This document shows, piece by piece, positions 18,277 to 57,015 of a stretch of DNA of 64,000 nucleotides. Under the pieces are notes generated by a model. That model ran no database searches. It saw only the letters and a list, made by a program, of their open reading frames with translations, and had not been told where the DNA came from. How positions within the stretch are numbered: the first letter of the stretch is position 1; each line of letters opens with the position of its first letter. This DNA is from Mauremys mutica (Eukaryota; Chordata; Testudines; Geoemydidae), in the NCBI RefSeq assembly GCF_020497125.1, contig NC_059080.1, forward strand, positions 46,813,563 to 46,877,562, written 5' to 3'. The translations under genes and the position numbers were made by a program.

Positions 18277-19911
18277 AAAAGCAGCAAAGAATCCTGTGGC
18301 ACCTTATAGACTAACAGACGTTTTGCAGCATGAGCTTTCGTGGGTGAATACCCACTTCTTCAGATGCAAGTGGTGGAAATTTCCAGGGGCAGGTAAATAT
18401 ATGCAAGCAAGAAGCAAGCTAGAGATAACGAGGTTAGTTCAATCAGGGAGGATGAGGCCCTGTTCTAGCAGTTGAGTGAAAACCAAGAGAGGAGAAACTG
18501 GTTCTGTAGTTGGCAAGCCATTCACAGTCTTTGTTTAATCCTGAGCTGATGGTGTCAAATTTGCAGATGAACTGGAGCTCAGCAGTTTTTCTTTGAAGTC
18601 TGGTCCTGAAGTTTTTTTGCTGCAGGATGGCCACCTTAAGATCTGCTATTGTGTGGCCAGGGAGGTTGAAGTGTTCTCCTACAGGTTTTTGTATATTGCC
18701 ATTCCTAATATCTGATTTGTGTCTATTTATCCTTTTCCTTAGAGACTGTCCAGTTTGGCCGATGTACATAGCAGAGGGGCATTGCTGGCATATGATGGCA
18801 TATATTACATTGGTGGACGTGCAGGTGAATGAACCGGTGATGGTGTGGCTGACCTGGTTAGGTCCTGTGATGGTGTCGCTGGTGTAGATATGTGGGCAGA
18901 GTTGGCATCGAGGTTTGTTGCATGGATTGGTTCCTGAGCTAGAGTTACTATGGTGCGGTGTGCAGTTACTGGTGAGAATATGCTTCAGGTTGTCTGTGGG
19001 CGAGGACTGGCCTGCCACCCAAGGCCTGTGAAAGTGTGGGATCACTGTCCAGGATGGGTTGTAGATCCCTGATGATGCGCTGGAGGGGTTTTAGCTGGGG
19101 ACTGTATGTGATGGCCAGTGGAGTCCTGTTGGTTTCTTTCTTGGGTTTGTCTTGCAGTAGGAGGCTTCTGGGTACATGTCTGGCTCTGTTGATCTGTCTC
19201 CTTATTTCCTCGTGCGGGTACTGTAGTTTTGAGAATGCTTGGTGGAGATTTTGTAGGTGTTGGTCTCTGTCTGTGGGGTTAGAGCAGATGCGGTTGTATC
19301 TCAGTGCTTGGCTGTAGACAATGGATCTTGTGGTGTGCCCGGGATGGAAGCTGGAGGCATGAAGGTAGGCATAGCGGTCGGTAGGTAGGTTTTCGGTATA
19401 GGGTGGTGTTAATGTGACCATCAATTATTTGCACCGTAGTGTCTAGGAAGTGGACCTCCCGTGTAGATTGGTCCAGGCTGAGGTTGATGGTGGGGTGGAA
19501 GCTGTTGAAATCATGGTGGAATTTTTCCAGAGTCTCCTTCCCATGGGTCCAGATGATGAAGATGTCATCAATGTAGCGTAGGTAGAGAAGGGGCGTGAGT
19601 GGACGGGAGCTGAGGAAGCGTTGTTCCAGGTCAGCCATAAAAATATTGGCATATTGTGGGGCCATGCGGGTGCCCATAGCGGTGCCACTGATCTGGAGAT
19701 ATATATTGTCATCAAATTTGAAATAGTTGTGTCTGAGGATAAAGGCACAGAGCTCAGCAACCAGTTGTGCTGTGGCATCATCAGGGATACTGTTCCTGAA
19801 AGCTTGTATTCCATCAGCATGTGGGATGTTGGTGTAGAGAGCCTCTACATCCATGGTGGCCAGGATGGTGTTTTCTGGAAGGTCACCAATGCAGGTCTCT
19901 ACACTGGAAGG
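18277..19911 (-). mobile_element. Penelope-like retroelement (RT plus GIY-YIG endonuclease), 5'-truncated and frameshifted
   Basis: Read on the minus strand, the coding remnant starts within the reverse transcriptase (MDVEALYTNIPH, GTAMGTRMAPQYANIFM, then the catalytic RYIDDIF). It continues through a spacer (SIVYSQALRYNRICS; the INRARHVPRSLL region) to a C-terminal GIY-YIG nuclease: IYAIICQQC..MYIGQTGQSLRKRINRHK and later GEHFN. This RT-to-GIY-YIG order defines Penelope-like elements. A 4-bp duplication ('taggtagg', about 19388) and another indel near 18990 break the frame. The 3' end is the widespread 'aagaagtgggtattcaccca' turtle repeat. The 12-bp repeat TCTCTACACTGT flanks the copy at 18265-18276 and 19912-19923. 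The element copies itself by target-primed reverse transcription when intact; this copy is dead. Confidence 0.92.
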
Positions 19912-19923
19912 TCTCTACACTGT

Positions 19924-22467: not shown

Positions 22468-23445
22468 TGTCATAGGTTTATTCCCCACTTTGAACTTTAG
22501 CGTTCACAAGATGGGGACCTGCATGGACTCCTCTAAACGAAAATCCTAGTTTAGATCTGGTTCTCGCTGCCACCAGTCAAGTTTTAAGTGTCTGACACAC
22601 TCCCTGTTCCCCCAAAAACTTTTCCTGGGGAACACAGATCCAAACACCTTGAATCTCAGCACAAAGGGAAATAATCCATTTCCCCCACCTTCTTCTCCCT
22701 CCCCTTGTCCTTGGGAGAGATACCTTGATTCAAACTCCTTGAATCAAACAAAGAGGGATTCACTTTTCCCCCTCCCCTTCCCTTAGTCCTTGGGAAAAAT
22801 ACCTTGATTCAAACTCCTTGAATCAAAGAGGGATTCACTTTTCCCCCTCCCCTTCCCTTAGTCCTTGGGAAAAATACCTTGATTCAAACTCCTTGAATCA
22901 AAGAGGGATTCACTTTTCCCCCTTCCCTTCCCCTGAAAATCCAAACAAGGGAAGAAATCAATCAAGTTCTAAAAAAGAAAAGATTTTATTAAAGAAAGAA
23001 AGAAAGTACACTATCTCTGTAATACCAGGATGGAAAATATCACAGGGTCTGACTTATAAACCTGGAGAGACTTCCCCCTCCCTCCTCCTCAGAATAATCA
23101 AAGTAACAGCAAACAGGAATAAAGAATTTATCCAGCAAACACACAATTGCAAATACAGAAAGTAACTCAAAAGACTAATCCGCCTTTTTACTAATACTCA
23201 CTATATTGAATAGAAGATGCTATTTCAGGAAACTTGGAGAACTTGAAGGATATGACTGGCCTCTCTTAAATCCAAAAAGAGACTAACTCCAAACAAAGAA
23301 ACACAGACAAAGGCTTCCCTCCACAGAGATTTGAAATTATCCTGTCCCTTGATTGGTCCTCTGGTCAGGTGTTCATCAGGTTACTGAGCTTGTTAACCCT
23401 TTACAGGTAAAAGAGACTTTAACCCTTAACTATCTGTTTATGACA
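22468..23445 (-). mobile_element. Solo LTR with perfect 5-bp TSD
   Basis: The 978-bp element begins TGTCATAGG and ends CTGTTTATGACA, so both ends fit TG..CA. It is flanked by identical gggag at 22463-22467 and 23446-23450. On the minus strand it starts 'tgtcataaacagatagttaa', which I recognise as a common turtle LTR. No internal retroviral genes are adjacent. An open frame over its repeats is an artefact. Confidence 0.92.
22722..22925. repeat. ~76-bp tandem repeat, about 2.7 copies, inside the LTR
   Basis: The unit 'ccttgattcaaactccttga' through 'cttagtccttgggaaaaata' occurs three times, the last copy partial. The first copy has a small insertion ('caaa'). The array sits in the transcribed part of the LTR. 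Confidence 0.88.
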
Positions 23446-36970: not shown

Positions 36971-37192
36971 GCCCTGGGAATGCCAGGCAGGTCTCTGGCA
37001 GTGAAAGTCTCCGCCCAGCAATGCCCTGGGAATGCCAGGCAGGTCTCTGGCAGTGAAAGTCTCCGCCCAGCAATGCCCTGGGAATGCCAGGCAGGTCTCT
37101 GGCAGTGAAAGTCTCCACCCAGCAATGCCCTGGGAATGCCAGGCAGGTCTCTGGCAGTGAAAGTCTCCGCCCAGCAATGCCCTGGGAATGCT
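36971..37192. repeat. 52-bp tandem repeat, about 4.3 copies
   Basis: The unit 'gccctgggaatgccaggcag' through 'ctccgcccagcaat' starts at 36971, 37023, 37075 and 37127, with a partial unit at 37179. Copies are almost identical (one G-to-A at about 37117). As 52 is not a multiple of three, the overlapping minus-strand frames across it rotate frame by frame and are not a protein. Confidence 0.95.
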
Positions 37193-43060: not shown

Positions 43061-43420
43061 GGTAGGACTATAATGCCATTGATGCTGTGATCAGCAGTCA
43101 GACAATAACAACAGACCAAAAGAGCAAAGCTCAACGGATTCCACCTGCCCATGCAGTAGCCACCCGGTGCCATTGCGTCTCTTTCCCTCTCTGTCACCAT
43201 GATGTCTATGAACAGCAAGCAGGCTTTCAGCATGCACCCCATCCTGCACGAGCCGAAATACACCCACCTGCACACCAGCTCGGAGGCCATCAGGAGAGCC
43301 TGTCTACCAGCCCCCCAGGTAAGCGGCACAAACAGTCCAGCACGTCCCTGAGAGCGGGACTGATGTCAGGCCGCTTTGCTGCCGGCTGCCTGGGGGCCCC
43401 GCGCTAGATGTACATGCATT
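42760..43420. promoter_or_regulatory. CpG-rich block over the POU4 first exon
   Basis: GC content and CpG density rise sharply compared with the flanks ('ggcggagtccgcagcc', 'cggggacgggaag') and fall again in the intron. This is the usual CpG-island setting of vertebrate developmental transcription-factor promoters. The edges are estimated by eye. Confidence 0.6.
43031..43100 (+). promoter_or_regulatory. Candidate core promoter of the POU4 gene
   Basis: A CCAAT motif (about 43032-43037), a GC box 'gggggcggg' (about 43048-43056) and a TATA-like TATAAT (43069-43074) lie in conventional order and spacing. A start near 43100 would give a 5' UTR of about 100 nt. The start codon at 43199 has a good initiation context (caccATGa). 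The transcription start is not proven by sequence. Confidence 0.45.
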
Positions 43421-45002
43421 TCAGTTTATTTCATAGGCAAGGGAAAGATGCAGGAGTCATGAACAGCGGATGGATTATTTTTATTTAGTGTCTTCGGCTA
43501 ATGCTTAGACCCTCTGTGTGATGGGGATTCCGCAAACTGCCTCTAACTTTTTCTTTAATTTAATTTTGCAGGCAGTCACATTCAGCAGAATCTCTCTAAC
43601 TAAATTGGCGATAAGTTTGTCGGGCAATTTCGATTCCTAGTATATTTTTTCCTGGAAGGAATATAAATTCTGTGAAGGACCCAAGTATGTGTTTGCGGGG
43701 CAGTTTGCTCGGGGTTCCCGGTTTAAGAAATAAGGCGAATGGCTTGCAGCTATTTGGAGTAAGAAAAAGAAACGGTCTCCCTCACTTTCTGGGCATGTTT
43801 GCCGGATTTAGGTCCATTGCCTGGTTTTATTCGTTTTTTTTGGGGGGGGGGGTGTTTTGTTTTTTCCAAAAATCTCTTTGCTTTGGACGAGCGTTGCCTT
43901 GAAGATTGGGTTAGATCATGTTGGCATTGGCTGGTAATTCTCCTAACGGGATGTTGGTGTCCTGACACCGAAGCCTCTCCTGCTCCTCTAGTCTGGGGTG
44001 ACCCGTTGCCTGTCGCCAGTCTTGCCCCCCTTGCATTTCAGAGAGCTATCGCGTGCTTCACACTCTTCTGGCATTTTTGTTTTTTTGTTTCCTCAGATCC
44101 AAGGCAATATCTTCGCGGGCTTCGATGAGACTTTGCTGAGAGGGGCTGAAGCTCTGGCAGCTGTGGATATAGTGTCTCAGAAAACCCATCCCTTCAAACC
44201 AGATGCCACCTACCACACCATGAGCAGCGTCTCCTGCACGCCCACCTCTTCTTCGGTTCACCTGCACCACCCCTCGGTGCTGACCACCCACCATCACCAC
44301 CACCACCACCACCAGCCCTCGCAGGGTTTGGAGGGGGAGCTCCTGGACCACCTCAACTCTGCCATCCCGCTGGGGGGTGTGCCCGGACCCGAGGTGGGCT
44401 CCACGCCCTCCCACCCGCACTCCCACATGCCAGCCCTCAACCACATGGCCCACCACCCTCAGTCCATGAACATGTCTCACCCCCACGGCTTGGCCTCCCA
44501 TGCTGTCATCTCAGGCCCCGAGACAGAGACAGACCCCAGGGAGCTGGAGTCCTTTGCTGAGCGGTTCAAGCAGAGGAGGATCAAACTTGGGGTGACCCAG
44601 GCGGATGTGGGCTCCGCCTTGGCCAACCTGAAGATCCCAGGTGTTGGCTGCCTGAGCCAAAGCACCATCTGCAGGTTCGAGTCCCTCACCTTGTCCCACA
44701 ACAACATGGTGGCCCTGAAGCCCATTTTGGAGGCTTGGCTGGAGGAGGCTGAGAGGGCTCAAAGAGAGAAAATGACCAAGCCCGAAATCTACACTGGGGG
44801 GGACAAGAAACGCAAGCGCACTTCCATAGCAGCCCCGGAGAAGAGGTCGCTGGAAGCTTATTTTGCTGTGCAGCCCAGACCTTCCTCGGAGAAAATCGCA
44901 GCCATTGCAGAGAAGTTAGACTTGAAGAAGAATGTGGTGCGCGTCTGGTTTTGCAACCAAAGACAGAAACAGAAAAGGATGAAATTTTCTGCAACCTACT
45001 GA
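43199..45002 (+). CDS. POU4F1-like: POU class 4 (Brn-3) homeodomain transcription factor, two exons
   Basis: Coding exons are 43199-43318 and 44097-45002, joined across a 778-bp intron with a consensus donor (CAG|GTAAGC) and acceptor (tttcctcag|ATC), in the same position as in other POU4 genes. The 341-residue nuclear protein starts MMSMNSKQAFSMHP. It has the POU-IV box (about 50-82, EALAAVDIVS and HPFKPDATYHTM), an eight-His run (105-112), a POU-specific domain (about 186-260, FAERFKQRRIKLGVTQADVG) and a homeodomain (278-337, ending in VVRVWFCNQRQKQKR). It should bind AT-rich POU sites; family members specify sensory neurons, retinal ganglion cells and hair cells. The C terminus KFSATY matches POU4F1. 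However, Cys225 replaces the usual Ser, Val replaces Ile in NNMVALKP, Glu replaces Gln in ILEAW, and the glycine-rich and alanine-rich spacers of POU4F1 are missing. It is either a divergent POU4F1 or, more likely, a fourth paralogue. Confidence 0.96.
43319..44096 (+). other. POU4 intron 1
   Basis: The 778-bp intron is bounded by GT..AG with a T-rich polypyrimidine tract just before the acceptor. It contains no recognisable repeat. In-frame open sequence from 43998 into exon 2 is intronic read-through and not an alternative start, because exon 1 supplies the conserved N-terminus. Confidence 0.93.
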
Positions 45003-55909: not shown

Positions 55910-57015
55910 CAGGGCCGCCCAGAGGATTCCGGGGGCCCGGGGTCTTCGGCGGCGGGGGGCCCTTCCGTTCCGGGACCCGCCGCCAAAGTGCCCCGAAGAC
56001 CCGCGGCGGGAGCCTCCCGCCGCCGAATTACCGCCGAAGCGGGACCGCGGCCGAAGCGCAGCCCGGTCTTCGGCGGTAATTCGGTGGCGGGGGGTGGTCC
56101 CCGCCACGGGCCTTCGGGGCACTTCGGCGGCGGGTCCCGGAACAGAAGGGCCCCCCCGCCGCCGAAGACCGGGCTGCGCTTCGACGGCGGCGGGTCGCGC
56201 TTCTCCCCCCCCCCCGCCCGGCCCCGGCCCCGGCTCCTTCCCCCCCGGCCCCGGCCCCCGCTTCGTCCCCCCCCCCCGGCCCCCGCTCCTCCCCCCCCCC
56301 CGGCCCCGGCCCCGGCCCCAGCCCCGGCCGCGGCCCCCGCTTCTTCCCCCCCCCCCCCCGGCCCCAGCCCCGGCCTCGGCCCCCGCTTCTTCCCCCCCCC
56401 CCCCGGCCCCAGCCCCGGCCCCGGCCCCGGCTTCTTCCCCCCCGGCCCCGGCCCCCGCTTCTCCCCCCCCCCCCCCCGGCCCCCGCTTCTTCCCCCCCCC
56501 CGCCCGGCCCCGGCCCCAGCCCCGGCCTCGGCCCCCGCTTCTTCCCCCCCCCCCCCCCCGGCCCCAGCCCCGGCCTCGGCCCCCGCTTCTTCCCCCCCCC
56601 CCCGGCCCCCGCTTCTTCCCCCCCCCCCGGCCCCGGCCCCGGCCCCGGCCCCGGCCCCGGCTTCTCCCCGAGCGCGTCGCCGGCAGGGCCTGAGCTCCGT
56701 CCCGCTCAGAGCCGCGTGGTGAGGGGGCGGGGCTGGGAGCTCCCCGCCAAGCGGAGGGAGCTGCCCCGCCCCCTCCCCACGGCGCTCTGAGCGGGACGGG
56801 GCTCAGGCCCCGTTGGAGCTCCCAGCCCCGCCCCCTCACTACGCGGCTCGGATCGGGGCGGGGCTCAGGGGCTCGGCCGGAGTCTCGGCGCTTGATGCGC
56901 TGAGGCTCCAGGAGAGGGGCGGAGGCGGGAGCCTCCGCTCTTCTCATGGGGGCCCCTGCGGAGCCCGGGGCCCGGGGCAAATTGCCCCCTTTGCCCCCCC
57001 CTCTGGGCGACCCTG
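55910..57015. mobile_element. GC-rich hAT-type foldback element with perfect 8-bp TSD
   Basis: The ends CAGGGCCGCCCAGAGG and CCTCTGGGCGACCCTG are inverted repeats with one mismatch. They are flanked by identical gctaaacc at 55902-55909 and 57016-57023. Inside are a ~100-bp inverted repeat (55941-56039 against 56068-56170), a C/G-only low-complexity array (56190-56665), and a second foldback (about 56695-56850). The long open frames of 366, 244 and 199 codons are Gly/Arg- or Pro-rich products of base composition, not genes. No transposase is present. Confidence 0.93.
56190..56665. repeat. CCCCGGCC-type low-complexity array
   Basis: C-runs of 8-16 alternate with 'ggccccggccccagccccgg' and 'cccgcttcttcc' motifs, ending in a clean run of GGCCCC hexamers (about 56632-56660). 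The minus strand has many G-runs able to form G-quadruplexes. Confidence 0.92.

Follow-up and report, generated by a model that had tools for sequence, protein, structure and literature searches.

The window analyzed here, a stretch of 64,000 nucleotides from the turtle Mauremys mutica, carries a two-exon gene on its forward strand (hereafter referred to as the window gene) with a single unbroken spliced open reading frame of 341 aa (Table 1). The start codon lies in a CACCATG context and the exon 2 acceptor reads CTCAG. The predicted protein matches the Pfam Pou (E 2.3e-31) and Homeodomain (E 6e-18) families, both over the cut-off and at scores for which chance is not an issue, with the POU-specific domain preceding the POU homeodomain as in class IV POU proteins. 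Alignment with 16 relatives also reveals the POU-IV box and a second conserved N-terminal box, with the intron falling after the first box, and an intron interrupts turtle POU4F1 (800 bases) and POU4F3 (315 bases) at the same place. No other POU class is named among the best 120 of 2871 database relatives, some of which bear a general name or none. The window gene is thus an intact class IV POU (POU4/BRN3) gene, and the full POU4 architecture attributed to it in the initial annotation is present in its intact two-exon frame, its two Pfam domains and both N-terminal boxes.

Pfam analysis of 10 chosen open reading frames among the 115 in the window identified only GIY-YIG and reverse transcriptase pieces, which leaves a further exon possible, while Rfam (at gathering scores) returned nothing in the window and ARAGORN no tRNA. 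From their make-up, we take these retroelement pieces to be of Penelope type, and an additional 237-aa frame presumably represents something akin to the tail of a CR1-type LINE.

Table 1. Features of the window (positions in nucleotides) and SPRY-type genes on the turtle POU4 chromosomes (positions in Mb on contigs C1, C5, C8 and C9, the last being the contig of the window).
Feature	Position	Strand	Remarks
Open frame, 237 aa	1894-2607	+	No Pfam match
Retroelement pieces	18443-19914	-	GIY-YIG (E 4.5e-6) and reverse transcriptase (E 5.8e-11), each in an open frame of its own
Short tandem array	22697-22932		75-bp unit x 3.1, 94%
Short tandem array	36971-37191		52-bp unit x 4.2, 98%
Exon 1, coding part	43199..43318	+	40 codons; POU-IV box; ends CLPAPQ; donor GTAAGC
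Intron	43319..44096	+	778 bases, GT-AG
Exon 2, coding part with stop	44097..45002	+	Second N-terminal box, His-rich region, POU-specific domain, homeodomain, tail KFSATY
POU-specific domain	44532..44753	+	Residues 186-259 (Pfam Pou); Cys (PGVGCLSQST) and Glu (LEAWL) of the clade
Homeodomain	44808..44978	+	Residues 278-334 (Pfam Homeodomain)
AATAAA	45205..45210	+	Possible polyadenylation signal, sequence match only
GC-rich tandem array	56217-56661		Periods 6 to 152; 1-kb bin 83% GC, C over G
SPRY-type gene, C1	281.64 Mb		POU4F1 at 282.86 Mb, 1.2 Mb apart
SPRY-type gene, C5	46.04 Mb		POU4F2 at 59.45 Mb, 13.4 Mb apart
SPRY-type gene, C8	95.48 Mb		POU4F3 at 93.39 Mb, 2.1 Mb apart
SPRY3, C9	46.671 Mb		Window gene ~185 kb apart

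Searching the assembly from which the window derives (2.48 Gb in 595 contigs) with the Pou family yielded 30 matches, counted exon by exon, of which eight were assigned to loci and the remaining 22 were weaker. Half of the located matches are POU4-type frames, corresponding to the window gene on C9 and to frames on C1, C8 and C5, each of the latter with its exon 1 found upstream. These three frames were named POU4F1, POU4F3 and POU4F2, respectively, from their tails and from where they fall in the phylogenetic tree. Among the eight located matches, the window gene is the sole POU4-type match on C9; a 361-aa POU-domain gene at 27.73 Mb on the same contig is presumably of POU3F4 type. The separate POU4F1 that the initial annotation had anticipated elsewhere in the genome is therefore present, on C1, which disposes of the objection that the genome might hold no other POU4F1.

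The four turtle genes are alike in their N-terminal boxes, POU-specific domain and homeodomain, and differ in chromosome and in the SPRY-type gene alongside. Comparison of their products agrees with the mixture of paralog features first described for the window protein, with one correction. Its tail, KFSATY, is identical to that of POU4F1, exon 1 ends in APQ as in POU4F3, a run of eight His residues compares with runs of 10 in POU4F1, 12 in POU4F2 and 2 in POU4F3, and the long Gly spacer is missing (longest Gly run of 2, versus 22 in POU4F1). The EAIRRACLPAP segment described as F1-like is so for EAIRRACLP, but not for the ensuing AP, turtle POU4F1 reading EAIRRACLPTPP. The homeodomain stretch KRKRTS...KQKRM is identical to that of POU4F1 (58/58 residues). 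In the POU-specific domain, the window protein matches POU4F1, POU4F2 and POU4F3 at 70, 69 and 68 of 74 residues, and the latter three share 71-73 of the 74 among themselves.

Phylogenetic inference was performed on 51 proteins, comprising those of the four turtle genes and 47 picked from 125 database proteins. All taxa were vertebrates, with no invertebrate outgroup, and the root was set for drawing on lamprey and hagfish; the branching order of the four copies is therefore not claimed. The resulting tree assigns the window gene to a fourth group, whose 24 rows are split from the rest by a branch supported at 100/100. Besides the window gene, this group takes in three cartilaginous fishes, ray-finned fishes, coelacanth, lungfish, amphibians, squamates, turtles, canary, platypus and echidna, and it recovers the expected clade with the extra frog and fish copies. 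An ungrouped seahorse protein also falls inside this group, in which the echidna-platypus pair adjoins the turtle Carettochelys on a weakly supported branch (83/64) that departs from the species order. Support for the remaining clades is 100/99 for POU4F1 (with four cartilaginous fishes), 100/99 for POU4F2 and 100/100 for POU4F3. Approximately unbiased (AU) tests rejected a clade uniting the window gene with turtle POU4F1 (p 1.5e-6), as well as a clade uniting the bony-vertebrate fourth genes with bony-vertebrate POU4F1 (p 1.1e-5). The tree, the AU tests and the chromosome thus all place the window gene outside the POU4F1 clade and locus, and it follows from the tree clades and AU tests that its separation from POU4F1 predates the split between cartilaginous and bony fishes. 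The identification of the window gene as an ancient fourth POU4 paralog holds, and the separate ancient copy first argued for on sequence divergence is now backed by a fully supported clade, the AU tests and the POU4F1 gene on C1. The simplest source of four POU4 copies would be the two early vertebrate genome duplications.

Two residues of the POU-specific domain track this division. The motif PGVG[C/S]LSQST carries Cys in 89 of the 125 database proteins and Ser in the other 36. Glu is found in L[E]AWL in 88 of the 89 Cys rows, P0017 being the one that does not match the pattern, and Gln in all 36 Ser rows; these 36 include the rows whose visible name is POU class 4 factor 1, 2 or 3. Both Cys and Glu are invariant in a 17-row alignment of clade members. 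A Sphaerodactylus townsendi protein flagged 'LOW QUALITY PROTEIN' (P0051) bears the fourth gene's name, yet shows Ser and Gln, as in POU4F1-3, and is possibly a chimera or the product of gene conversion.

Sprouty domains were identified at eight places in the turtle genome, four of them in frames of ~300 residues or more. There is one such frame per POU4 chromosome, each a different SPRY-type gene, and named relatives identify the one on C9 as SPRY3; given the distance on C5, linkage with POU4F2 is loose. The four remaining matches, two on C15 and one each on C3 and C4, lie in shorter frames and are presumably SPRED genes. The POU4F1 synteny that might have spoken for a POU4F1 identity is absent from the window gene, which lies on C9 beside SPRY3, with POU4F1 on C1 at 1.2 Mb from a SPRY2-like gene. 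If contigs of identical length are treated as one and the same, SPRY3 and the fourth gene lie together in 12 of the 13 species with lengths in both lists, including lungfish, coelacanth, caecilian and echidna. Lerista is the exception, with its fourth gene on an 11-kb piece. A shared contig with SPRY3 is not peculiar to the fourth gene: in a control comparison, a POU4F3 row matches the contig of SPRY3 in length in two of five species, both teleosts. This match in length, observed in Larimichthys (P0114/P0221) and Anguilla (P0110/P0209), is perhaps due to a teleost chromosome fusion.

In birds, the neighborhood of the fourth gene includes further markers. EDNRB2 has been described near the fourth POU4 gene in the duck, with the corresponding gene list placing the latter between SPRY3 and EDNRB2 plus VAMP7, and GRID2 is named in the linkage block as well (PMC8146663). 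In guinea fowl, the order by position is TMLHE, SPRY3, EDNRB-like and VAMP7 (PMC6579635). A probe search of C9 at 46.633-46.877 Mb, a region made up of the window and the 180 kb on its left side, found neither EDNRB2 nor VAMP7; the duck gene order leads us to expect both to the right of the window gene in the turtle.

Two explanations that dispense with an ancient fourth gene were considered in the light of these results. The window gene could be the reptile's only F1-type gene, a POU4F1 altered by lineage-specific evolution, as the POU4F1-identical tail and homeodomain would allow, but the turtle has a separate POU4F1, the AU test rejects grouping the two, and the Cys and Glu changes are common to sharks and fishes; the C1 gene and the tree led us to reject this explanation, whose probability is negligible. 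Equally remote is a turtle- or reptile-specific duplicate of a known POU4 gene, arising in tandem or by retrocopying. Against it stand the presence of the family intron, the lack of a second POU4-type match among those located on C9, the orthologs found in cartilaginous fishes and as far afield as a bird and the monotremes, and the equal-length contigs shared with SPRY3 in coelacanth, lungfish, caecilian and echidna. Nothing was found in its favor, and it was rejected on the cartilaginous-fish members of the clade.

The ancient fourth paralog had also been described in the initial annotation as absent from mammals, a claim that does not survive the database search: the gene is present in platypus (P0020, 85% identity across 99% of the query) as well as in echidna (P0066, 78% identity, flagged as low quality by its source). 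No therian member of the fourth clade was present among the best 120 of 2871 matches, nor among the best 120 of 2171 matches to the 17-row profile, a search that scored the 7980 candidates sharing most words; database rows are clusters shown by their named member alone, and this therian absence is thus no proof. The profile list extends to 569 bits, past the named squamate member with the lowest score (647 bits), and the therian rows among the matches listed correspond to POU4F3 (macaque) and POU4F2 (elephant shrew). Therians such as wombat, dugong and lemur retain SPRY3. In people, SPRY3 and POU3F4 are X-linked. We infer that the fourth POU4 gene was lost in therians and, because it is found in both living monotreme lineages, we place the loss on the therian stem.

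The same pattern of therian loss and platypus retention has been described for EDNRB2 (PMC3900529), and its recurrence in two nearby genes suggests a single loss of a block flanked by SPRY3 and VAMP7. We lean slightly towards a joint loss, on the therian stem, of the fourth POU4 gene and EDNRB2 from this interval as the segment joined the therian X, with monotremes keeping both. Such an event would mean that therians shed a pigment and sensory regulatory block at one stroke, and that chick BRN3A work is partly about a gene missing from mice and people. The main text of the report on the platypus and echidna genomes (PMC8081666) contains no mention of POU4, BRN3, SPRY3 or EDNRB.

Regarding function, the window gene very probably represents the fourth POU4 gene known in frog as Pou4f1.2/XBrn3d and encodes a nuclear activator of sensory-neuron genes working with POU4F1. 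The predicted nuclear protein would use its POU-specific domain and homeodomain to bind A/T-rich sites of POU4 type. It would activate terminal genes in somatosensory neurons and in those derived from placodes, and its function may partly overlap with that of POU4F1. In the chick, POU4F1 and POU4F1.2 reads are collectively higher in somatosensory than in viscerosensory ganglia (PMC4730756); in frog placodes, Six1/Eya1 target Pou4f1.2, which is placed downstream of NeuroD1 (PMC5035141); and in zebrafish, pou4f4 marks Rohon-Beard sensory neurons (PMC8367380). The fixation of Cys and Glu in the POU-specific domain of the 17 aligned members, while the N-terminal region of the clade varies, could instead point to a paralog whose role has moved away from terminal sensory differentiation, with no functional overlap with POU4F1. 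The homeodomain identical to that of POU4F1 and the expression in chick sensory ganglia and frog placodes (PMC4730756, PMC5035141) make such a divergence improbable, and a sensory activator partly overlapping with POU4F1 remains our preferred interpretation.

The best 120 of 2871 matches to the window protein include those of canary (P0002, 97% identity over the full length) and the turtle Emydura (P0003, 96%). Together with the platypus protein, these named orthologs belong to the same clade as the window gene and show no substantial difference from it, the window gene being an unremarkable ortholog. The fourth POU4 paralog proposed as possible in the initial annotation is therefore real but not new, being named in databases and described for chick and frog (PMC4730756, PMC5035141). 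Three points seem to have attracted little notice: that monotremes have the gene, that one genome holds four SPRY-type partners, and that EDNRB2 offers a parallel. Among the papers listed in a literature search outside subscription journals and supplements, there was no report of any of these or of a joint loss with EDNRB2. A 2023 table of vertebrate POU genes has three class IV members (PMC9953854), as opposed to the four POU4 genes of many jawed vertebrates, and BRN3A-type expression studies in chick, reptiles and frog may mix two genes.

The known systems to which the window gene compares most directly are those of amphibians, chick and zebrafish. The chick POU4F1.2 gene has been identified as the ortholog of amphibian Pou4f1.2/XBrn3d (PMC4730756), and in our tree, which contains no Xenopus protein of the fourth gene, toad, axolotl and caecilian proteins fall inside the clade of the window gene. 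Zebrafish pou4f4 is likewise a further POU4 gene (PMC8367380), the orthology of which to the window gene is assumed from its name, and the protein of its congener Danio aesculapii (P0023) lies inside the same clade. The chick study reports that the gene was not found in mammals (PMC4730756), whereas in the present analysis it is carried by both platypus and echidna.
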